Shown here in pieces: positions 4,971-29,987 of a stretch of 33,747 nucleotides of DNA. A model generated the notes under the pieces. That model was not told the DNA's origin. It did no database searches and saw nothing but the letters and a program-made list of their open reading frames with translations. Positions within the stretch are counted from its first letter, which is position 1. The number at the start of each line of letters is the position of its first letter. Source of the DNA: Candidatus Methanomethylophilaceae archaeon (GTDB lineage: Archaea > Thermoplasmatota > Thermoplasmata > Methanomassiliicoccales > Methanomethylophilaceae); NCBI GenBank assembly GCA_017461225.1, contig JAFTYV010000031.1, positions 1 through 33,747 on the forward strand. The letters run 5' to 3'. A program made the translations under genes and the position numbers.

Positions 4971-5615
4971 GTGGTGTTTTGTGGTGTCGACGAGGCCGGA
5001 AGGGGGTCCGTCATGGGTCCGCTCGTGGTCGGTGCCGTGTTCGTGGAGTCCGACGAGGACCTGCGCGAGCTGGGGGTCAGGGATTCCAAGAGGCTCACCC
5101 CCCGTGCGAGGGAGAGGATGTACGAGGCGATAACCTCCAACACGGAATGGCACGTGGAGATCGTCTCGGCGGAGGACATAGACCTGTTGAGGAAGGAGAT
5201 GTCCCTGAACGACATCGAACTGAGGATGTTCGCGGACGCCGTATCCCGGAGGGAGTGCGACACCGTCTTCGCGGACTGCCCCGACGTGAACGAGGAGGGT
5301 TTCGGCAGGCGCCTGTCCGCATCCCTGGGCGGACACGGCGGGGTGACGGCAAGGCATAAAGCGGATGACACATACCCCGTGGTATCCGCTGCATCCATCG
5401 TGGCGAAGGTGACACGTGACCGGATGATCGAAGACATCCGGGCCGAATACGGATGCAACATCGGAAGCGGGTACCCTAGCGACCACTACACCATGGACTT
5501 CATCCGCGGATGGATCGAATCCAACGGCCGCGCACCTGCACACGTCAGGTGCTCATGGGAGCCCGTCAGGCAGATGCTCTCCAGAAGGGCCAACACTAAG
5601 ATAAGCGATTGGTGA
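4971..5615 (+). CDS. rnhB: Ribonuclease HII
   Basis: A 214-residue RNase HII that cuts the RNA strand of RNA-DNA hybrids, including single embedded ribonucleotides and primer remnants. The signature VDEAGRG has Asp7 and Glu8. Asp102 (FADCPD) and Asp150 (ASIVAKVTRD) complete the expected acidic metal site. SGYPSDHYT near 166-174 is typical of archaeal and bacterial HII. The start is a GTG at 4971; an adjacent in-frame GTG at 4974 is equally possible, and there is no ATG before the DEAGRG motif. A TATA element 35-45 nt upstream implies little or no leader. It is co-transcribed with the SCP2-like gene, 4 nt downstream. Confidence 0.93.
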   Translation: MVFCGVDEAGRGSVMGPLVVGAVFVESDEDLRELGVRDSKRLTPRARERMYEAITSNTEWHVEIVSAEDIDLLRKEMSLNDIELRMFADAVSRRECDTVFADCPDVNEEGFGRRLSASLGGHGGVTARHKADDTYPVVSAASIVAKVTRDRMIEDIRAEYGCNIGSGYPSDHYTMDFIRGWIESNGRAPAHVRCSWEPVRQMLSRRANTKISDW

Positions 5616-5619
5616 TAAC

Positions 5620-5952
5620 ATGAGTATGCAGGACGACATCCAGTCCCTGGTCGACCGGTTCCACAGGAAGGTCGACGGGGACGAGAACCTCAGGAAGGAG
5701 ATCGAACACCTCGACAAGAAGTTCAACATCGACCTCGGGACGGAGGGTTACTCCATGGTCCTCAGGAACGCCAGGGTGGAGAGCCTCGAGCCCAACCTCA
5801 GGGACGACGCTGACCTCACCATAACGACAACCCCCGAGAACTTCCGCGGCCTCATCGACGGCACCCTCAGACCCATGAGGGCATATGTCATGAAGAAGGT
5901 CCAGATCAAGGGGAAGATTGACGATCTGATGTTCCTGAAGAAGTTCTTCTGA
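5620..5952 (+). CDS. SCP2 sterol-binding-fold protein
   Basis: A 110-residue single-domain protein of the SCP2 fold, which binds hydrophobic ligands. The family pattern is visible: amphipathic N-terminal helices, a strand pair (YSMVLRNARVESLEP), then DADLTITTTPENFRGLIDGTLRPMRAYVMKKVQIKGKIDDLMFL, which carries the family-typical ADLTI...L.G...P..A...GK..I.G layout (positions about 65-105). Small archaeal members are soluble and their ligand is unknown; a role with lipids is only a guess. It starts 4 nt after rnhB at ATG 5620 (a second ATG at 5626 is possible) and precedes the initiator tRNA gene, which has its own promoter. Confidence 0.8.
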   Translation: MSMQDDIQSLVDRFHRKVDGDENLRKEIEHLDKKFNIDLGTEGYSMVLRNARVESLEPNLRDDADLTITTTPENFRGLIDGTLRPMRAYVMKKVQIKGKIDDLMFLKKFF

Positions 5953-5968
5953 GGGGATTGTTCAAAAA

Positions 5969-5980
5969 CCTTTTATATTA
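5969..5980 (+). promoter_or_regulatory. TATA box of the initiator tRNA gene
   Basis: CCTTTTATATTA is a clear archaeal BRE/TATA element centred about 27 nt before the tRNA 5' end at 6003. Confidence 0.75.
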
Positions 5981-6002
5981 CATCTACTTTGCACGGTTTG
6001 AT

Positions 6003-6080
6003 AGCGAGGTGGGGTAGCCAGGATATCCCGTCGGGCTCATAACCCGGAGATCGGTCGTTCAAATCGACCCCTCGCTACCA
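6003..6080 (+). tRNA. Initiator tRNA-Met (CAT)
   Basis: The acceptor stem AGCGAGG pairs with CCTCGCT (6070-6076), the discriminator is A6077, and CCA is encoded at 6078-6080. The anticodon CAT is at 6038-6040 in the loop CTCATAA. The A1-U72 pair and the three G-C pairs flanking the anticodon loop (GGGCTCATAACCC) are the hallmarks of the archaeal initiator and argue against elongator Met or Ile2. A T-rich run follows the gene. Confidence 0.93.
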
Positions 6081-6230
6081 TCTCTTATCACTCTGTTTGT
6101 TTCGCAGTACGTTTCCGATCCCCATCGTCCCGGGATCACGGTATCGCCATCCTATCTCGATCGGACATTGTGACCGCATCGATCGTTGGTGCAGAAGAAT
6201 ACGGCACTGTGGCCGTCGGTGGAGTGGGAA

Positions 6231-6243
6231 GGGGCGGTGCCCC
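6231..6243 (-). terminator. Hairpin after the TPR gene
   Basis: GGGGC (6231-6235), loop GGT, GCCCC (6239-6243), with further partial pairing outside (GGA/TCC). It begins 6 nt past the stop of the leftward TPR gene. The rest of 6081-6230 shows no gene or clear RNA. Confidence 0.5.
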
Positions 6244-6249
6244 CTCCGA

Positions 6250-6762
6250 TCAGAGAAGCGTCTTGGCTTCCTCGACATCCATGTCGAGTGCCTTGAGCAT
6301 GTAGGTCAGCGCCTTCTTGCCGTACGGGGCACGCGCCTTGGGATCCTCCATGATCTCACCGTACGTGGCCATGACGTTGTTGTAGTACTCTATCGCGAAC
6401 TCGGAGTACAGGGATGCGGACATGGACTCGTCCATCTCGGCGGCCTCGCAGTACGCCTTCTCCGCCTCGTCGTACTTGTTCACGGAGATGCAGAACAGTC
6501 CGTACGACTGGTAGTAGTCGACACGCTCACCGTCGAGTTCGATGGCCTTCTTGTAGGCATCCATGATCTCCTGGGTGTCCACCTTCGCCCCGAACATGCC
6601 CGATGCGTAGTTCCCGCACTCGGCCTTGTAGTACCAGCACTCCGCGTTGTCGGGCACGTCTACGACGAGCTTCTTGAACGCCGTGTAAGCCTTTTTGAAA
6701 TCCCCCTCGTCCATCGCCTTGATCGCGTTGGCGATTTTCTTCTCGGGTGTTGCCTCTGCCAT
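6250..6762 (-). CDS. TPR-repeat protein
   Basis: A 170-residue soluble protein built of tetratricopeptide-like helical pairs. Units are visible near 8-40 (DEGDFKKAYTAFKKLVVDVPDN), 42-75 (AECWYYKAECGNYASG...DAYKKAIELDGE) and 82-115 (YYQSYGLFCISVNKYDEAEKAYCEAAEMDES), with a further helical pair to the end. TPR domains bind protein partners; no catalytic motif and no signal peptide are present. It is monocistronic: a TATA-like GCATTTAAG lies on the minus strand roughly 25 nt upstream and a hairpin follows. No partner can be named from the sequence. Confidence 0.8.
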   Translation of the reverse strand: MAEATPEKKIANAIKAMDEGDFKKAYTAFKKLVVDVPDNAECWYYKAECGNYASGMFGAKVDTQEIMDAYKKAIELDGERVDYYQSYGLFCISVNKYDEAEKAYCEAAEMDESMSASLYSEFAIEYYNNVMATYGEIMEDPKARAPYGKKALTYMLKALDMDVEEAKTLL

Positions 6763-6835
6763 ACGGATAGCATTTATGAGCGTGACTTAAATGCTTGCGG
6801 AAACCCTTATAAATATTCCATAACAATGTTGATTC

Positions 6836-7372
6836 ATGGAGAAATGGCGGGCCGCGTTGTCGACCAAGTTGTTCGAGGACTACACCATCAGGGTCGGTCC
6901 CGTGCCCACCTACGACCCGGAGAACCACGTGGTATGCAGGTCGAAGTGCGAGGAGAACCTGTGCGGTTGCTACGGGACGAACTGGGCGTGCCCCCCTGGG
7001 TTCTCCATGGACATCGCCGACCTGTACGGCAGGACCGACTACGTCCTGGTCGTCCACCGCACGTTCTGCCTGGATGTCCAGGACCAGGAGGTCGTGGAGG
7101 CCACCTGCCATGAGATGCAGAAGATCGTCAGGATCATGTCGCGCGAGCTCAGGAGCAACGGCCTCGACTGCATGGGCTTCGCCGACGGTGGATGCAAGTA
7201 CTGCGGCGTCTGCGCGTACCCCGAGCCCTGCCGCTTCCCGGATATGATGACCCCCTCTGTGTCCTCACTGGGACTGGATCTCAAGGACTACCTCGGGTCC
7301 ATGGGGGAGCCGTTCTACTTCTCGGACACCTGCATGACCCTGTACGGTTTGATATTCATCCTCAAAGGATAA
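6836..7372 (+). CDS. DUF2284 cysteine-rich metal-binding protein
   Basis: A 178-residue protein of the DUF2284 family (predicted metal-binding). It carries about a dozen cysteines in two groups: CRSKCEENLCGCYGTNWACPPG (starting near 34) and GGCKYCGVCAYPEPCRFPD (near 118-136), followed by the family-typical SVSSLGLDL. The pattern suggests iron-sulfur clusters or zinc, but which metal cannot be told. No signal peptide is present. TTATAAATA at 6807-6815 gives a start about 20 nt upstream of the codon, so the leader is short. It is the only gene here that ends in TAA. The next operon, gatCAB, begins 44 nt downstream with its own TATA box. Confidence 0.82.
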   Translation: MEKWRAALSTKLFEDYTIRVGPVPTYDPENHVVCRSKCEENLCGCYGTNWACPPGFSMDIADLYGRTDYVLVVHRTFCLDVQDQEVVEATCHEMQKIVRIMSRELRSNGLDCMGFADGGCKYCGVCAYPEPCRFPDMMTPSVSSLGLDLKDYLGSMGEPFYFSDTCMTLYGLIFILKG

Positions 7373-7374
7373 CA

Positions 7375-7412
7375 TTATTTTATAGACCTTCACGATAGCC
7401 ACGGGAAGGTCT
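7375..7412 (+). promoter_or_regulatory. gatCAB promoter with 8-bp inverted repeat
   Basis: A TATA element TTATTTTATAG (7375-7385) is followed by AGACCTTC (7384-7391) and its exact inverse GAAGGTCT (7405-7412), separated by 13 nt and ending 4 nt before the gatC ATG. The first arm and spacer (TATAGACCTTCACGATA) match the rnhB promoter but for one indel and one base. It could be a repressor site or an mRNA hairpin that masks the gatC start. Confidence 0.5.
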
Positions 7413-7416
7413 GAAC

Positions 7417-7689
7417 ATGGACAGGGAAACCATTGAGAGAGTGGCCCGTGCCGCACACATAAAACTCACGGATGACGAACTTGAGAGGTACAGCAGGGAC
7501 CTCGGTGAGATCCTCACGTACTTCGAGCTCCTGGACGAGGCTCCGGGATGCGATGACTACGGCGTCAACCCCGTCGAGGTCGCGGACATCCTCAGGGACG
7601 ACGAACCCTCCATCCGCATCGATCCGGATGAGCTCCTCAGGGACATGAACACCTACGAGGGATACGTCAGGGGGCCGAGGCTCTCATGA
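7417..7689 (+). CDS. gatC: Asp-tRNA(Asn)/Glu-tRNA(Gln) amidotransferase subunit C
   Basis: A 90-residue GatC, the small clamp that wraps GatA and GatB together. The N-terminal helices carry the family pattern (VARAAHIKLTDDELERYSRDLGEIL) and the C-terminal strand lies in NTYEGYVRGPRLS. It is the first gene of gatCAB; its TGA overlaps the gatA ATG by 4 nt (ATGA), which suggests coupled translation and equal subunit supply. In archaea GatCAB makes Asn-tRNA from Asp-tRNA(Asn), since GatDE handles Gln-tRNA. Confidence 0.9.
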   Translation: MDRETIERVARAAHIKLTDDELERYSRDLGEILTYFELLDEAPGCDDYGVNPVEVADILRDDEPSIRIDPDELLRDMNTYEGYVRGPRLS

Positions 7690-9008
7690 GATCCTACGGA
7701 CTGTCCGAGATAAGGGCCATCAACGGGAAGTACTCCATGTTCCACGCGATGACCGAGGAGGAACCGTCCGAGGGACGCTTCCACTTCTCCGCGAAGGACA
7801 ACCTCACATCCAAGGGGATGGAGACCTGCTCCGGATCGAGGATCCTCGAGGGCTACAGACCGGCCTTCGATGCGACATCCATCGAGAGGATGAAGGCGGC
7901 CGGAGGCGAACTCATCGGGAAGACCAACATGGACGAGTTCGGTTTCGGTACGTTCTCCACCAACTCGGGACTGGAGGTCCCCCGCAACCCCTTCGACCTG
8001 GAGAGGGCGTGCGGAGGTTCGTCCGGAGGATCGGCCTGCGCCGCCGCCGTGTTCGAGGACCACGTCTCGCTCGGGGTCTCCACCGGGGGATCCATCTGCT
8101 GTCCCGCCTCGTTCTGCGGGGTCTACGGCATCGCACCCACCTACGGGCGCGTGTCCAGATACGGACTCATCGACTACGGGAACTCCCTCGACAAGATAGG
8201 TGTCCTCTCCTCGAAGGCGACAGACCTCAGGAAGTACATCGGCGTCATGGCCGGAAAGGACGAGAGGGACCCCACATCCTGCGCCCAGCCCGAGCTCGGT
8301 GACTCGCATGTGAAGCTCGGATCCGTCGCCGTGCCCATGGAGGGCGTGGAGGGGCTTTCCAAGGATGTCGAGGCCGCGTTCCGCTCCGCACTGGTCGAGC
8401 TCGAGAGGATGGGCGTCGACGTCGAATACGTCAACATGCCGTCCCTGAAGTACGCCATGCCCGCATACTACGTCCTCGCGACGTCCGAGGCCTCGACCAA
8501 CCTCGCCAGGTACGTCGGTATGAGGTACGGACAGCAGGAGGGCGACCTCTCGCTCAAGTTCGATGACTACTTCACATCCTTCCGCTCCGAGTACTTCGGT
8601 GACGAGGCCAAGAGGAGGATCCTCCTCGGGACGTTCACGAGGATGGTCGGATTCAGGGACAGGTACTACGCCAAGGCCCTGCAGGTCAGGAAGGTCGTCA
8701 TAGACGACTACAAGAGGGTCCTCGCGGACCACGACGCCGTGCTGGCGCCCACGATGCCGTTCACGGCACCCCGCTTCGACGACATCTCGAAGATGTCCGC
8801 GCTCGACTCCTACAAGGCGGACTACCTCACGATCCCCGCCAACATAGCGGGCACCCCCCACATGTCGGTCCCCTGCGGATACGACTCGGACGGCATGCCC
8901 ATCGGCATGCAGTTCGTCGCGGACCACTGGAACGAGGAGGTGCTGTTCTCCATCGCGGAGGACTGGGAGAGGGAGTTCGAACTCAGGAGACCGGAGGTGG
9001 TAGCATGA
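7686..9008 (+). CDS. gatA: Asp-tRNA(Asn)/Glu-tRNA(Gln) amidotransferase subunit A (amidase)
   Basis: A 440-residue amidase-signature enzyme that frees ammonia from glutamine or asparagine and passes it to GatB. The catalytic triad of the family is present: Lys37 (SAKDNL), cis-Ser in GGSSGGSA (Ser112 or Ser113) and the nucleophile Ser136 in STGGSICCPASFCG. The N-terminus is about 40 residues shorter than in bacterial GatA, leaving little before the catalytic Lys. The usual Arg-Gln or Arg-Cys after GGSI is Cys-Cys (138-139), and the preceding Asp is Ser132, an unusual local variant. It overlaps gatC and gatB by 4 nt each. Confidence 0.93.
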   Translation: MRSYGLSEIRAINGKYSMFHAMTEEEPSEGRFHFSAKDNLTSKGMETCSGSRILEGYRPAFDATSIERMKAAGGELIGKTNMDEFGFGTFSTNSGLEVPRNPFDLERACGGSSGGSACAAAVFEDHVSLGVSTGGSICCPASFCGVYGIAPTYGRVSRYGLIDYGNSLDKIGVLSSKATDLRKYIGVMAGKDERDPTSCAQPELGDSHVKLGSVAVPMEGVEGLSKDVEAAFRSALVELERMGVDVEYVNMPSLKYAMPAYYVLATSEASTNLARYVGMRYGQQEGDLSLKFDDYFTSFRSEYFGDEAKRRILLGTFTRMVGFRDRYYAKALQVRKVVIDDYKRVLADHDAVLAPTMPFTAPRFDDISKMSALDSYKADYLTIPANIAGTPHMSVPCGYDSDGMPIGMQFVADHWNEEVLFSIAEDWEREFELRRPEVVA

Positions 9009-10342
9009 AGATCGGATTGGAGATCCACGTCCAGCTGCCCACCAGGTCGAAGATGTTCTGCTCGTGTCCCACCACCGACGCGGAGGCACCCAACACCCAT
9101 GTGTGCCCCACATGCCTCGGCATGCCGGGATCCAGGCCCGTCCTCAACAGGAAGGTCCTCGAGTACGGCATCATGCTCGCGAAGATGCTCGGGTGCAGGG
9201 TTGCGGACACGACCTGGTTCTCCAGGAAGACGTACTTCTACCCGGACATGTCCAAGAGCGTCCAGATCACCCAGTACGACAACCCCGTCGGAGAGGGCGG
9301 GGTCTACTACCTCAACGGGAAGAAGCCCATCAGGATCACCAGGATCCACATAGAGGAGGACCCTGGTAAGACGAAGAGGGTCGGAGACCAGTCGTCCCTC
9401 GTAGACTACAACAGGTCCGGGATCCCCCTGGCGGAGATCGTCACGGAACCCGACATCGCCACCCCCGCGGAGGCCAGGGAGTTCCTCGGACAGCTCATCG
9501 CCGACATCAGGCACGTGATCGACCTCCCCGGCGACGGGGAGAGGAGCATACGCTGCGACTGCAACATCTCCGTCGGGAAGGAGAGATGCGAGGTCAAGAA
9601 CGTCACCGGACTCAAGAACGTGGAGAGGGCCCTGACCTTCGAGATGGTCAGGCAGACCAAGATCCTGAAGGCCGGAGGGAAGATCGAGCGCGAGACCAGG
9701 CGCTTCGACGAGGAGAGGGGAGTCACCATCTCCGTCAGGAAGAAGGAGTTCGAGGCCGACTACGGATACATCGACGAACCCGACCTGGGGGTCTACCACA
9801 TCAGGGAGCTCGCCGACTCCATCAGGATCAAGGAGAGCCCCCTCAAGATGACGCTGAGACTCTCGGACCAGTACGGCATCGACCAGAAGATGTCCAAGCA
9901 GCTCGTGACCACATCCGTCGGCCTGGCCGAGATGTTCGAGACCGTGGCGAGGGACGTCGACGTCCCCAACGCGATCAAATGGGTCGCCGGACCCATCAGC
10001 GCCAACTGGAGGTCCCTGGAGAGCAGGGGCGCCGACACCGAGACCCTCGTGGGGATCATAAGGAGGTTCGCATCCGGGGAGATCACCGACACCGAGTGCG
10101 GCATGGAGATCAAATGCCACATGACCGGGGAGGACCGTGATTCGGTCCAGGGTGCATCCGAGGGACTCGACACCCTCATCAACCAGTACCTCGACGAGAA
10201 CCCGGCGGTCGTCACCGACTACCAGAAGAACGAGAAGGCGGCCAACAAGGTCATCGGGTTCGTCATGAAGAACTCCGGTGGACAGTACTCCTCCGCGGAG
10301 GTCGTGGAGGCCACCAAGAGACTCATAGAGTCCAGAATCTGA
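9005..10342 (+). CDS. gatB: Asp-tRNA(Asn)/Glu-tRNA(Gln) amidotransferase subunit B
   Basis: A 445-residue GatB, the ATP-dependent kinase/transamidase subunit that activates the side-chain carboxyl of mischarged tRNA. GLEIHVQL opens the cradle domain. The zinc site is visible as CSCP (near 19-22) and CPTCLGMPG (near 36-44). Conserved blocks SRKTYFYPDM and RIHIEEDPGK follow. The last ~150 residues form the helical and YqeY-like tail that contacts the tRNA. It is the last gene of gatCAB; a 10-bp stem-loop 18 nt past the stop ends the operon. Confidence 0.95.
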   Translation: MKIGLEIHVQLPTRSKMFCSCPTTDAEAPNTHVCPTCLGMPGSRPVLNRKVLEYGIMLAKMLGCRVADTTWFSRKTYFYPDMSKSVQITQYDNPVGEGGVYYLNGKKPIRITRIHIEEDPGKTKRVGDQSSLVDYNRSGIPLAEIVTEPDIATPAEAREFLGQLIADIRHVIDLPGDGERSIRCDCNISVGKERCEVKNVTGLKNVERALTFEMVRQTKILKAGGKIERETRRFDEERGVTISVRKKEFEADYGYIDEPDLGVYHIRELADSIRIKESPLKMTLRLSDQYGIDQKMSKQLVTTSVGLAEMFETVARDVDVPNAIKWVAGPISANWRSLESRGADTETLVGIIRRFASGEITDTECGMEIKCHMTGEDRDSVQGASEGLDTLINQYLDENPAVVTDYQKNEKAANKVIGFVMKNSGGQYSSAEVVEATKRLIESRI

Positions 10343-20732: not shown

Positions 20733-20751
20733 ACGGAACGTCAGTTCCCGT
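20733..20751 (-). terminator. Hairpin around the pgk stop codon
   Basis: On the minus strand ACGGGAAC and GTTCCGT pair (one bulged base) around the loop TGAC, which contains the pgk TGA. The perfect inner stem is GGAAC/GTTCC (20735-20739, 20744-20748). Confidence 0.5.
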
Positions 20752-21982
20752 CCTTGGCGAACCTCTCCTTCGAGTACTTCAGCGCCTCTATGACGGGAAG
20801 GGGCTCTCCGAGGAGGAACGTCTCCAGCGCTCCACCGCCCGTGCTCACGTACGAGAAGCGGTCGGCGAGGTCGAACCTCTCCGCGGCACCGCCGGTGTGA
20901 CCTCCGCCTATGACGGACTGTCCGCCGCTGTCCACCATCGCGGACATGATGACGCGGGTCCCGATCTCGAAACCCTCCTTCTCGATCATCCCGGCAGGGC
21001 CGGACATGAAGCACGTCTTCGAGGACATGATGACCTTCCTGAACTTCTCGGCGGTGTCGTCGCCGATGTCGAGCGCGGGTTCGGCCGTGGGCATGTCCCC
21101 TATGTTGACGGAGACCCTGCGACCGTCCCTCTCCACCGCGACGTCCACGGGGAGGAGGACCCTCTGACCGTACTTCGCGAGGATGTCCTTCGCCGCCTGG
21201 AGGTTCTCGGGAGTCAGCTCGTCCTGGAGGACCTTCGTGCTGGCCTCCCCGATGTCGACTCCCCTCGCGAGGAGGTACGCGTTGCCCGCGAGACCCACGA
21301 GGATGACCGTGTCGGCGACCCCGTTCCCGAGGACGCGGTCGATCATCTCGGACACGTCCCCGAACTTGGCACCGCCGAGGATGAACACGGACGGCCTGCG
21401 GGGGTTCTCGAATATCGCCTTGAGTGCGAACATCTCCTTGGCCATGAGCCTCCCGGATGCGGAGGGTACCCTGACGGGGAACCCGACGAGGGAGCACTGC
21501 GACCTGTGGGACGCTCCGAACGCATCGCAGACGTAGTAGTCTATCATAGGGGCGAGCCTCTCGACGATCTCGCCCTCGGAGTGCATGAACATGTCGCCCT
21601 TGGCGGTCTCGCTGTCTATGCCCCTCACGTTGCCGAGGAGCAGGAGCTCGCCGGGTCCGAGTCCGGAGATCGCCGCCGCTGCCTCCTCCCCCAGGACGTC
21701 GTCGACGTACCTGACGGGTGCGTTGAGGTGCTTCGAGAGGTGGTCGGCGTGCTGCTCCAGGTTGATGAAGTCCCAACCGCCCTTCCTGCTCTGGTGGGCG
21801 AGCATGACGACCTTGGCCCTCTTGCCCATGAGCTCCCTGACGGTGGGGACGATGCGCCTTATCCTGGAGTCGTTCACGATCTCCAGGGTCTTCTTGTCCA
21901 GCGGGCAGTTTATATCGACCCTGAGGAGGACGGTCTTGTCCCTGTAGTTGAAGTCCTCGAGGGTGTTGAAGTCCTTGGACGT
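20741..21982 (-). CDS. pgk: Phosphoglycerate kinase, apparent ACG start
   Basis: A 413-residue PGK if translation begins at ACG 21980-21982. The reading SKDFNTLEDFNYRDKTVLLRVDIN... continues with NDSRIRRIVPTVRELM, and the conserved substrate block KTVLLRVDIN needs this upstream start. The first conventional start in frame is a GTG at 21875-21877, which would delete residues 1-35 including that block. Other family marks are present: AHQSRKGG, DAFGASHR, ILGGAKFGD, GGGHTGGA. The enzyme transfers phosphate between 1,3-bisphosphoglycerate and ADP. It follows gap by 9 nt on the same mRNA. The TGA stop is in a hairpin loop. Confidence 0.9.
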   Translation of the reverse strand, partial: TSKDFNTLEDFNYRDKTVLLRVDINCPLDKKTLEIVNDSRIRRIVPTVRELMGKRAKVVMLAHQSRKGGWDFINLEQHADHLSKHLNAPVRYVDDVLGEEAAAAISGLGPGELLLLGNVRGIDSETAKGDMFMHSEGEIVERLAPMIDYYVCDAFGASHRSQCSLVGFPVRVPSASGRLMAKEMFALKAIFENPRRPSVFILGGAKFGDVSEMIDRVLGNGVADTVILVGLAGNAYLLARGVDIGEASTKVLQDELTPENLQAAKDILAKYGQRVLLPVDVAVERDGRRVSVNIGDMPTAEPALDIGDDTAEKFRKVIMSSKTCFMSGPAGMIEKEGFEIGTRVIMSAMVDSGGQSVIGGGHTGGAAERFDLADRFSYVSTGGGALETFLLGEPLPVIEALKYSKERFAKDGN

Positions 21983-21993
21983 GGTCCCACCTC
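21980..21993 (-). promoter_or_regulatory. Shine-Dalgarno sequence and ACG start of pgk
   Basis: GAGGTG (21988-21993, minus strand) is fully complementary to the CACCTC of the archaeal 16S 3' end and overlaps the gap stop codon. After a 5-nt spacer (GGACC) comes ACG, one base from ATG, then the PGK N-terminus. No ATG, GTG or TTG lies in frame between the gap stop and the conserved PGK sequence. Confidence 0.7.
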
Positions 21994-23014
21994 AGAGGGT
22001 CTTGGAGATCCCGAGGGATGCGTCGGTCTTCGCGACGGATGCGGATGCATCCTGCTCCATCTTGCACATCGACCTGATGCAGTCGATGTTCTCGGGGATG
22101 ACGTCGGACTCCTGGTGGACCGCCTGGTAGAAGTAGAGGGTGTTGCCGACGACCTTTATGCCGTCCTCCCAGACGATGATCTCGTACATGTCGGACCTGT
22201 CGCGGCCGAGGTCCCTGGCCAGCTCCATGACCTGGGCGGTGGTCTTGATGCCGTCCTTGCTCCTGACGAGCCTCACACGGGGGGCGTCCCTCAGGATCGC
22301 CACGATCTCCTCGGTGGTGGTCTCCTCTGCGAGCTGGGCGACGACGGTGTGGAGGTGCATGAGGGTGGTGGACGCCTTCACGGCCATGGTGTTGATGTTG
22401 AGCCAGGGCATGATGCTCTGGACATCGGGGCCGTGGTGGGTGGGCAGCTTGACGGAGGGCTCGAGGCCGTTGATGGGTCCGTTCTTGCTGTCCCCGGGAT
22501 CCGCTGCGCGCCTGACTATGGTGACGAACGCGTTCTCGATCTTGAACCTCTTGTCGATGGGGTTGAGTGTCCTCAGGAGTCCGGTCGTGTTGCACGAGAC
22601 GACACGGGAGAGCTGCGCTCCCCAGGACTCGGAGTAGTTGGCGGTCGAGTTGAAGGAGATGCCCGTGAGTCCGTGGTCCTCCCCTCCCTGGAAGATGGCC
22701 TTGACACCGGCCTCGACGTACTGGTCCCTGTACATCTCGCCCACGTTGCCGGGGGTGCAGTCCACGACGATGTCGACCTTGCCGTACATGTCCCTGAGGG
22801 TACCGGCGATCTCGACACCGGCGTCCTTGAACGCCTGGACGCTGTCGTCGGGGACGTAGAGGTCGTAGCCCTTGGCCAGGGCCGCCCTGGCCTCGAACGT
22901 GGGCCTCGTCTTGGTGACCCCGACCAGCTCCATGTCGTCCTGCGCTGCGACAGCCGACGCGACCCTCTTACCGATAGTACCGTAACCGTTTACTCCAACC
23001 CTGATCTTCGACAT
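21992..23014 (-). CDS. gap: Glyceraldehyde-3-phosphate dehydrogenase, archaeal type II
   Basis: A 340-residue archaeal (class II) GAPDH. The Rossmann motif is VGVNGYGTIGKR (6-17). The catalytic Cys141 lies in SCNTTGL, the archaeal signature. FQGGEDHG and RRAADPGDSKNGPINGLEP are typical archaeal blocks. It interconverts GAP and 1,3-bisphosphoglycerate with NAD(P). The start MSKIRVGVNG at 23014 is supported by a TATA element (ATTATTTTAATTGG on the minus strand, 23042-23056); an in-frame ATG upstream would add 39 unlikely residues. It is the first gene of gap-pgk, which in methanogens mainly serves gluconeogenesis. Confidence 0.95.
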   Translation of the reverse strand: MSKIRVGVNGYGTIGKRVASAVAAQDDMELVGVTKTRPTFEARAALAKGYDLYVPDDSVQAFKDAGVEIAGTLRDMYGKVDIVVDCTPGNVGEMYRDQYVEAGVKAIFQGGEDHGLTGISFNSTANYSESWGAQLSRVVSCNTTGLLRTLNPIDKRFKIENAFVTIVRRAADPGDSKNGPINGLEPSVKLPTHHGPDVQSIMPWLNINTMAVKASTTLMHLHTVVAQLAEETTTEEIVAILRDAPRVRLVRSKDGIKTTAQVMELARDLGRDRSDMYEIIVWEDGIKVVGNTLYFYQAVHQESDVIPENIDCIRSMCKMEQDASASVAKTDASLGISKTL

Positions 23015-23129
23015 AGTATAACCTTGCCACACGTAAGTTGCTCCAATTAAAATAATGTTACCCGCGCGGATGCACGCGTGCGTCCCCACATGCGAATAGT
23101 ATTCAAATCCCGATACGCATACCAGTCCC

Positions 23130-26100
23130 ATGGGATTGGAAGACGACCTCTACAGCGAGCTCCTGGCACTCAGGGACACGCTCAGATCGGAGAAGAGGAT
23201 GGCGAACGGCAGGATACCCACCGTTTGCTCCGACGAGGCACTGCGCGAGATGGCGCAGCGCGTGCCCACGAAGGTCGACGACTTCTCGGCCATAGTGGGC
23301 GTCGGTCAGAGGTTCGTCGAACTGTACGGGGAGGACTTCCTCAGCGTGACGCGCAAGTACGCGATAACCGCGGCCAACGGATCCAACATCGACGAGGAGG
23401 CCGCCAGGACCCTGAGGGAACTGGAGAAGAAGCTCATCAACATCAGCAGGGGGAACCGCCTCCTGTACCAGGGGAAGATCTCCCGCAAGAACACCTTCGA
23501 CCTGATGTCCCTCCCTGGGGTGGACGTCATGGGCCTCCTGTTCGGGAGGAAGAGGATCCTCAAGCTCTGCGACTCGGCGAAGAGCCCCGAGGAGATGAGG
23601 GTGTACAAGCACCTGAACGAGATCATACGCGAGGTCAACAGGGAGCTGAGGGACAAGGGACAGTACGACCTGTACATCGGATACCCCTTCGTCCAGGGCA
23701 GGATGCCCAACGAGGACTTCGACGTGCGTGCACCCCTCGCCCTGTTCCCGGTCATCCTGGAGAAGGACTCGAGGACCATCACGCTCTCGTACGACGGCTC
23801 CCGCGATCCCATGTACAACAACACGCTCATACTGGCGTACATAAAGTCCAGCGGCAACAACAGGCCCCTGCCAAACAACATCATCGAGGACTACTCCGGG
23901 GAGACGTTCATGAGCGACCTGGTGGAGTTCTACGCGTCCAGCGGCATCCCGCTCGGCTGCAACTACGGCCTGCCGTCCCAGTTCGTCGACTACAGGGCGG
24001 GGGAGTTCCCCCGGTACCTCCCGGGCGACATGGAGGTCGTCCCCAACGTGGTACTGGGCAAGTACCCCACGTACTCCAGTTCGATCCAGAGGGACTTCGA
24101 CGGCGTCCTCGCCGGACGCGAGATCAACGGGATCCTCAACGACCTCGTCGTGGACCTCAACAAGACTGACTTCCTGTCGGACCTCCCCGCACCGCTCACC
24201 GAGGAGGAGATCAGGGACAAGGGCATGGCGGCGTCGGAGAGGGACCTGGTGTACATCAACTCCCTCAACAGCGCCCAGGAGAACATCCTGACCGCCATCG
24301 AGCACGGGGACGAGGTCGTCGTCCAGGGACCCCCGGGAACCGGCAAGTCCCAGGTCATCACCGGACTCATCACGTCCGCGGTGACCAAGGGCAAGACGGT
24401 CCTGATGGTCTCGGAGAAGAAGACCGCCCTCGACGTGGTCTACTCCCGCCTCGGGAACCTGGCCCGCTACTGCCTCCTAATCGATGACGTCGGTAACAAG
24501 GACCTCTTCTACAGGCAGCTGGAGAGCATGCTCTCCGCCGGATCCCCCAAGAGGGGCGTTGACCTGGACCAGGTGTCCGACAGCATCGACAGGGACGTGG
24601 CCCTGCTGGACAACATCGCCAGGGTGATGTACAGTCCCTGCGACTTCGGCATCGAGCCGTACAAGCTCTACTCCATGGACAGGTGGCTGGACGCCAAGGA
24701 CTCCCGCCACATCGACGAGTACAGGGTGCTCAAGGAGAGCATCGACCCGTCGCTGATGGAACTCCGCTACCCGGAGGTCACGGAGCTCCACAGGAGGTTC
24801 GGCGACAGGACCCTGATGAGGAACTTCAACGAGTACATCGACATGGTGAACAGGTACCCGTGGATGACCATGATGAAGCCCGACCTGTCCGAGTACAACA
24901 TCGGCGAGATGAGGGCGGACCTGCTGGACCTGGAGAAGCAGATGATAGAGTGGCGCTCCAAGGGCTTCGTCGGCAGGCTGTTCTCCAAGGGGAAGGTGTC
25001 ACGCGAGGCCACCGCCATGACGGACAGGTACTTCGCGAACTACAACGAGCACACGATCCAGATGATCATGGACGACCCCCGCAGGGTGTTCGAGGGACTG
25101 GACGGGTACGACCTGTTCTCCGCCAGGGAGACCGTGTACAGCAAGCTCTCAGAGGAGGAGAGGACGTACGGCTGCGACATCCGCGAGGTGTCCACGGCGA
25201 CCGGGATGCAGCACTCGGACAGCAACGACAGGATCTACGACTGGATCCTGAACGAGCACCTGCAGAGGTTCGATGCCGAGCACAAGGGCATCATGCAGGA
25301 GATCTGGGACTTCGACAGCATCATCGCCGACATGGACAGGAAGATCAACGACAAGAGGGCGCTGACCCGCGACAAGGTCGAGGAGGTCTTCCAGGAGAAC
25401 CTGAAGTACATAACGGAGTCCAAGAGGCGCGGCGACATAAACAGGATCATCGAGTCCAAGAGGAAGTGGAACCTGAACAAGTTCATCAACCGCTACGGGT
25501 ACGAGCTGTTCAAGGGTGTGCGCGTCTGGCTGCTCACCCCGGAGGTCGTGTCCGAGATCCTCCCGCTCGAGATGGGCATATTCGACCTGCTGATCTTCGA
25601 CGAGGCGTCGCAGATGTACGTGGAGAAGGGAATACCATCCATATACCGCGCCAAGAAGGTCGTCGTCGCAGGTGACCACAAGCAGCTCCGCCCGTCGAGC
25701 CTGGGGATGGGCAGGATGGAGTTCGAGAGCGACGAGGACGACATGGAGGATGTGGTGTCCGCCGCCCTCGAGGAGGAGTCCCTGCTGGACCTGGCGAGGG
25801 CGAGGTACGACTCGATCCTCCTGAACTTCCACTACAGGTCGAAGTACGAGGAGCTCATCGCGTTCTCCAACTACGCGTTCTACGGCGGCAGGCTCTACGT
25901 GTCGCCCAACGTCATCGATCCCCCCAAGCCCCCCATCGAGGTGTTCAGGGTGGACGGACTGTGGGAGGACAAGTCCAACCGCGCCGAGGCGGAGAAGATC
26001 GTCTCGCTCCTCAAGGAGTTCTTCATCAACAGGAGGAACGGCGAGACCGTGGGCATAATCACGTTCAACGTGTCCCAGAGGGACCTGATCAACGACGTGC

Positions 26101-26849
26101 TCGACGAGGAGTGCGCCAACGACCCCGGCTTCGGCAAGCTGGTGGCGGACGAGATGAAGAGGTTCGACAACGGGGAGGACGTGGGACTGTTCATCAAGAA
26201 CATCGAGAGCGTCCAGGGTGACGAGCGCGACGTCATCATGTTCTCCATCGGGTACGCGAGGAACTCCGAGGGCAAGCTCATGCAGAGGTTCGGGTGGCTC
26301 AACAACCGCGGCGGGGAGAACCGCCTCAACGTCGCCATATCCCGTGCGAAGCAGAAGATCTGCATCGTCACGTCCTTCGATCCCGAGGACCTCCAGGTCG
26401 AGGAGACGAAGAACGAGGGGCCCCGCATCCTCAAGAAGTACCTGCAGTACGCCAACGCGGTCAGCAGGGGCGACAGGGAGATGGCGGACTCCATCCTCCA
26501 CTCCTTCGGCGACGAGAGGTGGCTCAATGCGGAGGAGTACGACTCCGGCAGGATCGCCGACAGGGTCTACAACACGCTCACCCGCAAGGGCTACACGGTC
26601 GAGAGGAACGTGGGCATAGGCGGCTACCAGATAGACCTGGCCGTGAAGCAGAACGACAGGTACATCCTGGGCATAGAGTGCGACAGCCGCCTCTACGAGC
26701 TGTCGTCGTCCACCAGGGAGAGGGACTACCACAGGCAGAAGTACCTCGAGTCCAGGGGATGGAGGATCCACAGGGTGTGGACCCCCGGCATGTGGAAGGA
26801 CCCCGAGAAGGAGATCTCCCGCATCATATCCGCCATAGAGAGGAACTGA
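23130..26849 (+). CDS. HRDC-DUF4011-SF1 helicase with C-terminal REase_MTES_1575 nuclease
   Basis: A 1239-residue multidomain protein. Residues ~33-80 form an HRDC domain (DEALREMAQRVPTKVDDFSAIVGVG). ~95-330 is DUF4011-like (LEKKLINISRGNRLLYQGK). The SF1 helicase core has Walker A GPPGTGKS (400-407), DEAS at 824-827, motif III AGDHKQLRPS near 847, NFHYRSKYEEL near 900 and the motif V/VI blocks ESVQGDERDVI and RLNVAISRAKQ. The C-terminus is a PD-(D/E)XK-type nuclease with D1169 (YQIDLAV), E1183 and D1185 (GIECDS), then RERDYHRQKYLESRGWRIHRVW, matching REase_MTES_1575. Roughly 415 residues between Walker A and B are a large insertion with coiled-coil character. It is a single-gene unit. DNA repair or defence against foreign DNA are both possible. 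Confidence 0.88.
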   Translation: MGLEDDLYSELLALRDTLRSEKRMANGRIPTVCSDEALREMAQRVPTKVDDFSAIVGVGQRFVELYGEDFLSVTRKYAITAANGSNIDEEAARTLRELEKKLINISRGNRLLYQGKISRKNTFDLMSLPGVDVMGLLFGRKRILKLCDSAKSPEEMRVYKHLNEIIREVNRELRDKGQYDLYIGYPFVQGRMPNEDFDVRAPLALFPVILEKDSRTITLSYDGSRDPMYNNTLILAYIKSSGNNRPLPNNIIEDYSGETFMSDLVEFYASSGIPLGCNYGLPSQFVDYRAGEFPRYLPGDMEVVPNVVLGKYPTYSSSIQRDFDGVLAGREINGILNDLVVDLNKTDFLSDLPAPLTEEEIRDKGMAASERDLVYINSLNSAQENILTAIEHGDEVVVQGPPGTGKSQVITGLITSAVTKGKTVLMVSEKKTALDVVYSRLGNLARYCLLIDDVGNKDLFYRQLESMLSAGSPKRGVDLDQVSDSIDRDVALLDNIARVMYSPCDFGIEPYKLYSMDRWLDAKDSRHIDEYRVLKESIDPSLMELRYPEVTELHRRFGDRTLMRNFNEYIDMVNRYPWMTMMKPDLSEYNIGEMRADLLDLEKQMIEWRSKGFVGRLFSKGKVSREATAMTDRYFANYNEHTIQMIMDDPRRVFEGLDGYDLFSARETVYSKLSEEERTYGCDIREVSTATGMQHSDSNDRIYDWILNEHLQRFDAEHKGIMQEIWDFDSIIADMDRKINDKRALTRDKVEEVFQENLKYITESKRRGDINRIIESKRKWNLNKFINRYGYELFKGVRVWLLTPEVVSEILPLEMGIFDLLIFDEASQMYVEKGIPSIYRAKKVVVAGDHKQLRPSSLGMGRMEFESDEDDMEDVVSAALEEESLLDLARARYDSILLNFHYRSKYEELIAFSNYAFYGGRLYVSPNVIDPPKPPIEVFRVDGLWEDKSNRAEAEKIVSLLKEFFINRRNGETVGIITFNVSQRDLINDVLDEECANDPGFGKLVADEMKRFDNGEDVGLFIKNIESVQGDERDVIMFSIGYARNSEGKLMQRFGWLNNRGGENRLNVAISRAKQKICIVTSFDPEDLQVEETKNEGPRILKKYLQYANAVSRGDREMADSILHSFGDERWLNAEEYDSGRIADRVYNTLTRKGYTVERNVGIGGYQIDLAVKQNDRYILGIECDSRLYELSSSTRERDYHRQKYLESRGWRIHRVWTPGMWKDPEKEISRIISAIERN

Positions 26850-26915: not shown

Positions 26916-27137
26916 ATGACCAAGACCACTCTGAAGGTAGAGGGAATGATGTGCGAGGGCTGCGTCGGCAACGTCCGTGCCGCCCTGCAGGCCGTACCCG
27001 GTGTGACATCCGTCGACGTCGACCTCAAGAAGGGGACGGCGAAGGTGGAGCACGGCGGGTGCACAGACGAGGCGCTCATCGGGGCCGTCGTCGACGCGGG
27101 GTTCAGGGCATCCGTCAAGCGCGGGCTGTTCTCATGA
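26916..27137 (+). CDS. copZ: CopZ-like heavy-metal (copper) chaperone
   Basis: A 73-residue single HMA domain with the ferredoxin-like beta-alpha-beta-beta-alpha-beta layout. The metal site is GMMCEGC (10-16; Cys13 and Cys16), the second Met replacing the usual Thr. [27 protein letters not shown] is the typical core. It should carry Cu(I) to the ATPase encoded next, whose ATG overlaps this stop by 4 nt. The promoter is just upstream, and the mRNA leader would be very short. Confidence 0.9.
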
Positions 27138-29341
27138 TCGCGAGGACGCTCCGAGTCGGCGGGATGACCTGCTCCGCATGCACGGGACGCGTCGAGTCCG
27201 CGATCCTGTCCGTGGACGGGGTCGTCTCCGCCGAGGCCAACATAGGGAGCGGCACCGCCACGGTCACCTTCGACGAGGGGGTCGCGGACGAGGCCGCGAT
27301 AGCCGCCGCGATCGGATCCGCGGGCTACACCGTCATAACCGGCGGCAGGGACGAGGTGTCCCGCCGGGAGGAGCTTGACATAGAGACGAGGTTCAGGGAC
27401 CTGGTCCTCGCCGCCGTCTTCGCGATCCCGCTCGCCATCGTCTCCATGGGACCCATGTTCGGCATGGACATCCCACTGGGGCCCCTGCACATGTGCATCC
27501 TCCAGATCGCACTGTGCGTCCCCATCCTCTATGCCGGGAGACGCTTCTACAGGAAGGGTTTCCCAGCGCTGTTCTCCAGGAACCCCACCATGGACTCGCT
27601 CGTCGCGCTGGGCACCTCCGCGGCGCTGTGCCTGGGGCTGTACAACACGTACCTCGTCGCCTCCGGCGACCTGCACGCGGTGCACTCGCTGAGCTTCGAC
27701 TCGATGGGCATGATCATCACGCTCGTGAGCGTGGGCAAGTTCCTGGAGGCGAGGTCCAAGCACCGCACCAACGAGTCCCTGAGGGGGCTCCTGTCCATGG
27801 CCCCCGACGAGGCGACCGTGATCAGGGACGGACGGGAGGTCCGCATCCCCGCAGGGGAGCTCGTGCAGGGCGACACCGTGGTGGTCCGCCCCGGCGAGAG
27901 GATCCCCACCGACGCCACGGTGACCTGGGGCGAGTCCGATGTGGACGAGTCCATGCTCACCGGCGAGAGCATGCCCGTGCACAAGGTGCCGGGCGACACG
28001 GTCTACGGTGCGACCGTGAACGGGTCGGGGAGCATCAGGGCCAACGTGGAGAGCGTCGGCGAGGACACCGTCCTGTTCCAGATCGCGAGGATGATGGAGA
28101 TGGCCCAGGGCACGAAGGCCCCCGTGGCCAACATCGCGGACAGGGTCGCATCGGTGTTCGTGCCCGCGGTCATGCTGATCGCGCTGGCCTGCCTCGTGGG
28201 ATGGGCCGTCGCGGGACGCGACCTCCAGTTCTGCCTCACGATAGCGATCTCCGTCCTCGTCATCTCGTGCCCCTGCGCACTGGGCCTCGCGACACCGCTG
28301 GCCATAGTCGTGGGCACCGGGAAGGGCTCCCAGCACGGCATCCTGTTCAAGACGGCCGCCTCGCTGGAGGCCGCCGCCAGGGTAGACACGGTCATCCTCG
28401 ACAAGACGGGGACGGTGACCACGGGTGTACCCGAGGTCACATGGGTCCGTGCCGAAGACGGGACCGTCGCGATGGCGGCTGCGGCGGAGTCCGCATCCGA
28501 GCATCCCCTCGGCAGGGCTGTGGTGGATTATGCGGGATCGAAGGGACTGGCCGTACTGGACCTGGACGGTTTCGAGAGCATCACCGGACAGGGGGTACGT
28601 GCGTACATCGGCGGCCACCGCGTCCTCGTGGGCAACCCCAGGCTGATGGACGGGGAGGGTGTCGACATATCCTGCGCGGAGCCCGTGCCGGACGAGTGCA
28701 CCGCCGTCCACATCGCCGTCGACGGCGTGTACGCGGGAACGGTCGGGATCTCCGATCCGCCACGTCCTGAATCACCATCGGCGGTCGCATCGCTCCGCAG
28801 GGACGGCATCCGCACCATGATGGTCACGGGGGACCGTCGCGAGACGGCGGAGTCCATCGCATCGCGCACCGGAATCGACGAGGTCGTTGCCGAGACGCTG
28901 CCCGGGGACAAGCTCTCCAAGGTGAAGTCGCTGCAGGTCGCCCAGGCACGCGTGGCCATGGTCGGTGACGGGATAAACGACGCCCCGGCGCTGACCCAGG
29001 CCGACGTCGGGATGGCCGTCGGGTCGGGAACGGACATCGCCATGGAGTCGGCGGACATCGTCCTGATGAACGGGGACCTCAGGAGCGTCCCCGCCGCATT
29101 GGAGATCGGTCGCGCCACGCTCCGCAACATCAAGCAGAACCTCTTCTTCGCGTTCTGCTACAACACCGTGTGCATCCCCATAGCCGCCGGACTCCCGATA
29201 CTGCTGGGGTTCGAAGGGCTCGTGATGCAGATGCCCATGCTCTCCGCGGCGGCGATGTCGCTGTCGTCGGTGTCGGTGGTATCCAACGCGCTCAGGCTCA
29301 GGGGGTTCGAACCCCTCAGTCTGCGCGGAGGGAGGCCCTGA
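27134..29341 (+). CDS. copA: Copper-exporting P1B-type ATPase
   Basis: A 735-residue P1B-1 ATPase that pumps Cu(I) (possibly Ag(I)) out of the cell. One N-terminal HMA domain has GMTCSAC (10-16). Eight membrane helices are expected: four before the actuator domain with TGES (LTGESMP), CPC in [12 protein letters not shown] (Cys379, Cys381), the phosphorylation motif DKTGT (423-427), the HP motif SEHPLG, and GDGIND (611-616), then two last helices with YN (FCYNTVC) and MxxSS (MSLSSVSVV), both class P1B-1 marks. The last 26 nt overlap dph6 on the other strand, and its terminator-like hairpin lies inside dph6. Confidence 0.95.
29302..29315 (-). terminator. Palindrome abutting the dph6 stop, inside copA
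   Basis: GGGGTTCGAACCCC is a perfect 14-bp palindrome directly next to the dph6 stop (29316-29318) and within the copA 3' coding region (codes GFEP). Confidence 0.45.
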
Positions 29342-29987
29342 CGACATCCATGGTCCCGCTCCCGCGGGACCAGCGGATGTCGGATTCATCGATGGATAGG
29401 GGACGGGAGTGCATGGGCGAGTCCAACGTCAGGGACTCGTACTCCCCTCCCTCACCCATCACGCTTATACCGTACCTGTCGCGGAGGGCGCGGAGCTCGT
29501 CCACGGCCCCGCGGTCGATCCTCCGTCCGAGCCACTCCCTGCCGAGCCCCTCCGCGTAGCATCCGACGATGACCGCCTCGATGCCGGACGACAGGAACTC
29601 CTCGATGACCAGGTCCTGGTCCTTCCTCCACAGCGGGGAGAACACCTTCAGGCCCAGGTCGCCGCACACCATGTTCATGCGGTCCCACTGGTAGTCGGAC
29701 CACACCGCCCCGGTGACGACACCGTCGACATCCAGCCCCTCCAGAGCCCTGCGGAGGCCCTCCATGTCCCCCTCCTCGGTCCCCGTGCTCGGCGCGGTGA
29801 CCAGTTCCTTCCCCATGGACTCCGCCATGAGGGGTATCAGCGAGAGGTTCGGCGTGTGGAATATCCACGACGCCTCGTCCTCGGGCATGATGCAGACGAG
29901 GTACGGGACCTCGTGACCCATCTGCTCCGCGAGGTACAGTGCGAACGTGGAGTCCTTTCCACCCGAGTACAGGGAAGCCAATCTCAT
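29316..29987 (-). CDS. dph6: Diphthine--ammonia ligase (Dph6)
   Basis: A 223-residue ATP-pyrophosphatase that amidates diphthine to diphthamide on elongation factor 2, the last step of that modification. The PP-loop SGGKDS is at 8-13. [31 protein letters not shown] and [14 protein letters not shown] are conserved family blocks; the last is diagnostic. The length is that of the archaeal stand-alone form. It is convergent with copA with a 26-nt overlap and divergent from crcB (52 nt apart). Confidence 0.92.
29351..29372 (+). terminator. 9-bp hairpin after copA, inside dph6
   Basis: TGGTCCCGC (29351-29359), loop TCCC, GCGGGACCA (29364-29372), perfect pairing, 9 nt past the copA stop. It lies in the coding 3' end of dph6 (codes WSRGSGTM). 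Confidence 0.5.

Follow-up and report, generated by a model that had tools for sequence, protein, structure and literature searches.

The locus raises the question of whether a protein that joins a domain known from repair helicases to a core known from anti-phage proteins, and that is encoded among housekeeping genes of a gut methanogenic archaeon, is a resident repair factor or a stable solitary defence gene. The window, meaning the whole stretch of 33,747 nucleotides that was analysed, is contig 64 of a 1.52-Mb assembly from a Methanomethylophilaceae archaeon, and it carries on the plus strand an intact ORF (23130-26849) with an ATG start and no internal stops. The 1239-residue product unites an HRDC domain, with which it starts, a partial DUF4011 region, an Upf1/Dna2-like SF1 helicase and a MTES_1575 (Vsr-like) nuclease, with which it ends. 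The original prediction had read this architecture from the sequence, and its domain calls were right, the Pfam matches all lying above the gathering cut-offs: HRDC (23145-23348, residues 6-73, PF00570, E=3.3e-11, 43.4 bits, cut-off 23.8), DUF4011 (23595-23828, residues 156-233, PF13195, E=8e-8, 32.8 bits, cut-off 22.2) and MTES_1575 (26559-26837, residues 1144-1236, PF18741, E=1.5e-28, 99.1 bits, cut-off 38.2). Failure of the HRDC or MTES_1575 profiles had been named as one outcome that would count against the prediction, and both match. The helicase is covered by AAA_11 (E=1.8e-17) and, in the second RecA domain (25782-26375, residues 885-1082), by AAA_12 (PF13087, E=6.4e-20).

The active sites are well conserved among homologues. 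The Walker A motif GPPGTGKS (24327-24350, residues 400-407) keeps K406 and S407 in 77/77 sequences, the Walker B motif DEAS (25599-25610, residues 824-827) keeps D824 and E825 in 76/76, and the nuclease residues D1169, E1183 and D1185, all present in the window protein as had been proposed, are kept in 72, 73 and 74 of 74 homologues, respectively. The DUF4011 match covers only the second half of the profile (75-154 of 158), the conserved block spans approximately residues 121-345, and the motifs G-x3-LYxxYPF and APLxLxP are invariant. An insertion of about 415 residues between the Walker motifs had been predicted; their spacing is indeed about 418 residues, but the true insert in the first RecA domain is shorter, about 300 residues (24540-25439, residues ~471-770). 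It varies more than any other part of the protein, and in most pairs its dN/dS is also the highest. Structure prediction, which had also been suggested as a check, succeeded for the helicase-nuclease part: the AlphaFold2 model of residues 346-1239 has a mean pLDDT of 81.7, the insert is predicted to be all-helical, and the fold matches Aquarius, Senataxin, IGHMBP2, Upf1 and Dna2. For the N-terminal third, a low-confidence model (mean pLDDT 60) gave no significant fold matches against the PDB and a BLM match at a probability of only 0.35, so that the HRDC call rests on sequence profiles, among them a family profile of 14 homologous N-termini that matches solved RecQ HRDC structures (2rhf, 7.5e-8; 1wud, 4.7e-7). 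The domain is acidic (pI 4.85), and DNA binding by it is therefore not obvious.

The right flank of the gene is conserved. In seven genera (g1, g3, g4, g19, g21, g22 and g26) it directly adjoins the cluster (copZ-copA)-dph6-rpiA-L44e-aIF2alpha-nop10-PAC2, represented in the window by copZ (26916-27134, plus strand), copA extending to about 29338, and the dph6-like gene (29328-29987, minus strand). At this locus copZ is present in g1, g19, g22 and g26; a functional link to copper genes was rejected, since copZ-copA is missing there in g3, g4 and g21. The predicted position between gap and copZ holds for the window, where the divergent gap gene starts near 23015 and pgk and gap stand between ham1 and the helicase gene (20741-23128), but none of the other genomes examined has this arrangement. 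The window genome and G032 have a common left flank, on the ham1 side, which is also found in genomes without the gene, while most of the genus has another one, rrp42-L37ae...tyrS-tctA. The pgk/gap placement is thus a local rearrangement, and the gap adjacency reflects local history and carries no functional information. In g5, the gene is located elsewhere, in up to two copies.

The translation genes of the right flank bear on a first alternative, in which an Upf1/Senataxin-like motor would work on RNA or R-loops and be tied to this neighbourhood. Such an RNA-directed enzyme would fit the adjacency of L44e and aIF2alpha as well as the top structural matches, which are the RNA helicases Aquarius, Senataxin, IGHMBP2 and Upf1, but the nuclease belongs to a DNase family (Vsr), HRDC is typical of DNA helicases, and the g5 copies lack that neighbourhood, which makes this alternative improbable.

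The history of the gene is mostly vertical. In a tree of 77 homologues the sequences group largely by genus, and most pairs outside one clade have a dN/dS of 0.02-0.12 (G000-G005 reaches 0.18), which is similar to that of copA and equals or betters the constraint on flanking housekeeping genes; for the nuclease it is 0.016-0.057 in most of these pairs. The exception, clade B (G001, G002, G006, G018, G025, G026 and G029), forms a long branch, although flanking genes place it inside the genus. Its dN/dS is higher (0.15-0.23), and nuclease residues have been lost in some members (D1169 in G025 and G029, E1183 in G006) with the helicase motifs intact. Acceleration is the simpler reading of the long branch, compared with in-situ replacement of the allele by a foreign gene, because clade B keeps evolving faster in its tips too. 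Taken together, the seven-genus synteny, the presence in 31/31 genomes of the genus, the genus-wise tree and the strong purifying selection identify a resident, vertically inherited chromosomal gene, not a mobile island. The original prediction's guess of a stable resident gene was right, and the host-like composition that it had noted (~0.60 GC) was found as well.

These observations weigh heavily against a second alternative, namely that a defence gene, mobile or newly acquired, stands between housekeeping genes by chance. Kinship with mobile defence genes and the g5 copies at other places, one of them beside a transposase gene, would agree with it, but the synteny, genus-wide presence, tree and composition leave it very little probability. 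For the window's lineage, a gene of a mobile defence island is refuted by synteny and tree, the location not being variable and the presence not being patchy within the genus. The transposase gene in question is of the DDE type and adjoins one of the two out-of-place copies in G034 (L061, 11990-13666), a hint at how the gene moved; there were no PADLOC matches near either copy. In the search for defence context, a second copy in G006 had only a kinase-like protein beside it.

The close homologues are found in Candidatus Methanomethylophilaceae/Methanomassiliicoccaceae genomes, and the HRDC-DUF4011 N-terminus is present in 79/102 genomes of the family and in 9 of its 14 genera. The gene is dispensable, since several genera of the family cleanly lack it: g6, g23, g24 and most of g2 (e.g. 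G031) have the neighbours of the locus but not the gene. Among some 350 genomes from the rest of the phylum, none had the fusion, and every match outside the family in a 390-genome phylum draw covers either the DUF4011 part alone or the HRDC part alone. No fusion was found in viruses, phages or plasmids; relatives on plasmids (whose best matches begin no earlier than residue 99), in the one phage record and on viral contigs have the core without the HRDC part. One viral contig (L119, 562-4206) encodes a compact DUF4011-SF1-MTES_1575 protein of similar length, with 39% best-segment identity, which starts directly at the DUF4011 side with no HRDC found, and the same compact core, also with no HRDC found, occurs in G056, from another family of the order. 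The core module is thus widespread, while its fusion to HRDC was confined to a single archaeal family within the phylum draw and the plasmid, phage and viral sequences that were searched. The N-terminal HRDC addition, which the original prediction had singled out as undescribed, is real, and a literature search found no paper on the HRDC-DUF4011 combination.

In profile searches the closest relatives are the anti-phage proteins PDC-S37 (2.5e-161) and Hhe (1e-84), and among curated profiles ProA (1.1e-161) and Hhe (1.3e-114) match. The order DUF4011, SF1 helicase with insert, MTES_1575 is common to the window protein and ProA/PDC-S37 (NF058533, PDLC05009), but those profiles, of about 1550-1900 positions, extend further at the N-terminus and continue beyond the nuclease at the C-terminus, and the window protein does neither. 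The best stretch (residues 744-1238) aligns with positions 863-1340 of the 1550 of PDC-S37, short of full length, and the last 210 positions of the profile have no counterpart, the window protein ending earlier. Hhe (NF042953) comprises giant HEPN-transglutaminase-helicase-Vsr-wHTH proteins, e.g. MTES_1575 (PMC3710099). It has the same helicase and nuclease core, but its HEPN, transglutaminase and wHTH parts were not detected in the window protein; for HEPN, the 25 best Pfam families listed, with E values up to 1, included no match. The scores lie far below the curated cut-offs (540 bits vs 1500 for ProA, 384 vs 2000 for Hhe), which speaks against a defence reading. As it falls outside both, the protein, with DUF4011, SF1 motifs and MTES_1575 in one chain, is filed as a variant of the broad DUF4011 helicase-nuclease kind. 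A parallel is found in Pseudomonas aeruginosa, where a DUF4011 gene is present in every isolate and borders a defence hotspot (PMC10250203).

Other likenesses point towards genome maintenance. Dna2 and the Upf1/IGHMBP2 SF1B helicases have a common motor fold with the window protein, and Dna2 likewise combines motor and nuclease in one protein. The Dna2 nuclease is N-terminal, RecB-like and carries an Fe-S cluster, unlike the C-terminal Vsr-like nuclease seen here. HRDC is a feature of the RecQ and UvrD2 repair helicases (PMC2734928), mycobacterial UvrD2 being an SF1 precedent, but in these the domain is C-terminal and there is neither DUF4011 nor nuclease. A Dna2-like enzyme that processes flaps, stalled forks or broken ends and is made selective for structures by HRDC, as in RecQ, would accord with these features and with family-wide vertical inheritance, a fixed housekeeping locus and housekeeping-level purifying selection, and a repair role accordingly stays in play; the clean absence from several genera of the same family, the two copies elsewhere in g5, the loss of nuclease residues in parts of clade B and the anti-phage nature of the closest profile relatives make it a possible but not a favoured explanation.

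Some genomes encode a separate ProA/PDC-S37-like protein of about 2000 residues (PDC-S37 match, 1041 bits), present in 21/102 genomes of the family; each of the seven clade B genomes has it, as do four of g22. In most loci of the genus a gene for a PLD-family (NgoFVII-like) nuclease lies directly upstream of it; this gene was identified by a Pfam match in L150 (3677-10561) and by BLAST homology in L151, L154, L156, L157 and L158, and the pair is a possible two-gene system. The resident protein tends to evolve faster where the long relative is present: the ratio of helicase to marker distance is 1.78-2.52 in clade B and 0.67-0.95 in genomes without the long relative (with an outlier, G011, at 0.35, where the markers are unreliable), and within g22 it is 1.10-2.03 with it vs 0.68-0.89 without. 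The association is post hoc and its support modest: some six cases count as independent, and they agree in direction, with G013 (0.90) and G022 (0.89) being marginal; the rank tests treat related genomes as independent, and genome size may be a confounder. This faster evolution and the loss of nuclease residues in clade B suggest that the resident protein is partly redundant with the long, defence-type one.

Between repair and defence, which the original prediction had left side by side, the evidence tilts to a fixed defence or anti-mobile-element role, given the clean absence in several genera, the mostly anti-phage profile relatives and the faster evolution beside the long relative; judged from sequence, an anti-mobile-element role is more likely than repair. 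On the other hand, no defence neighbours were found at the resident locus, and a defence gene would not usually occupy a conserved housekeeping locus or evolve so slowly. An even chance may be given to a surveillance nuclease that is resident, always present and directed against the DNA of invaders (viruses, plasmids), single-gene, vertically inherited and chromosomally fixed. The HRDC-DUF4011 end would recognise particular DNA structures or a partner, the motor would translocate on one strand (usually 5'-to-3' in helicases of this group), and the nuclease would cut what the motor engages, the whole being a putative core-genome version of the ProA/PDC-S37/Hhe module minus their extra N- and C-terminal domains. 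A more speculative extension, which we hold only tentatively, is that the archaeal family has fixed this compact HRDC-armed enzyme at a housekeeping locus for permanent innate immunity, and that the enzyme decays where the longer two-gene version (PLD nuclease plus ProA-like protein) takes over the task.

The gene is a clear natural example of a core gene, fixed and slow to evolve, built on a module that is elsewhere known from anti-phage proteins and extended by an HRDC domain specific to the lineage. It also cautions against taking a profile match to a defence family as a sign of a mobile defence island. Whether it has a task in common with the long relative is made testable by their association. 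Some minor irregularities were seen in individual sequences. The resident copy of G029 (L064, minus strand, between ORFs 6490-7827 and 7924-10158) contains one in-frame TAG, a codon that the order of these archaea is known to read as pyrrolysine, and this could be readthrough, decay or an assembly error. In G070 (L160), which also has the long relative, motif V of the resident protein (residues ~1029-1032) carries substitutions (Q to R, G to A, E to R), which may reflect a local frameshift or decay. The compact helicase-nuclease gene on the viral contig L119 lies about 1 kb from an N6/N4 DNA methylase ORF (5176-6231).
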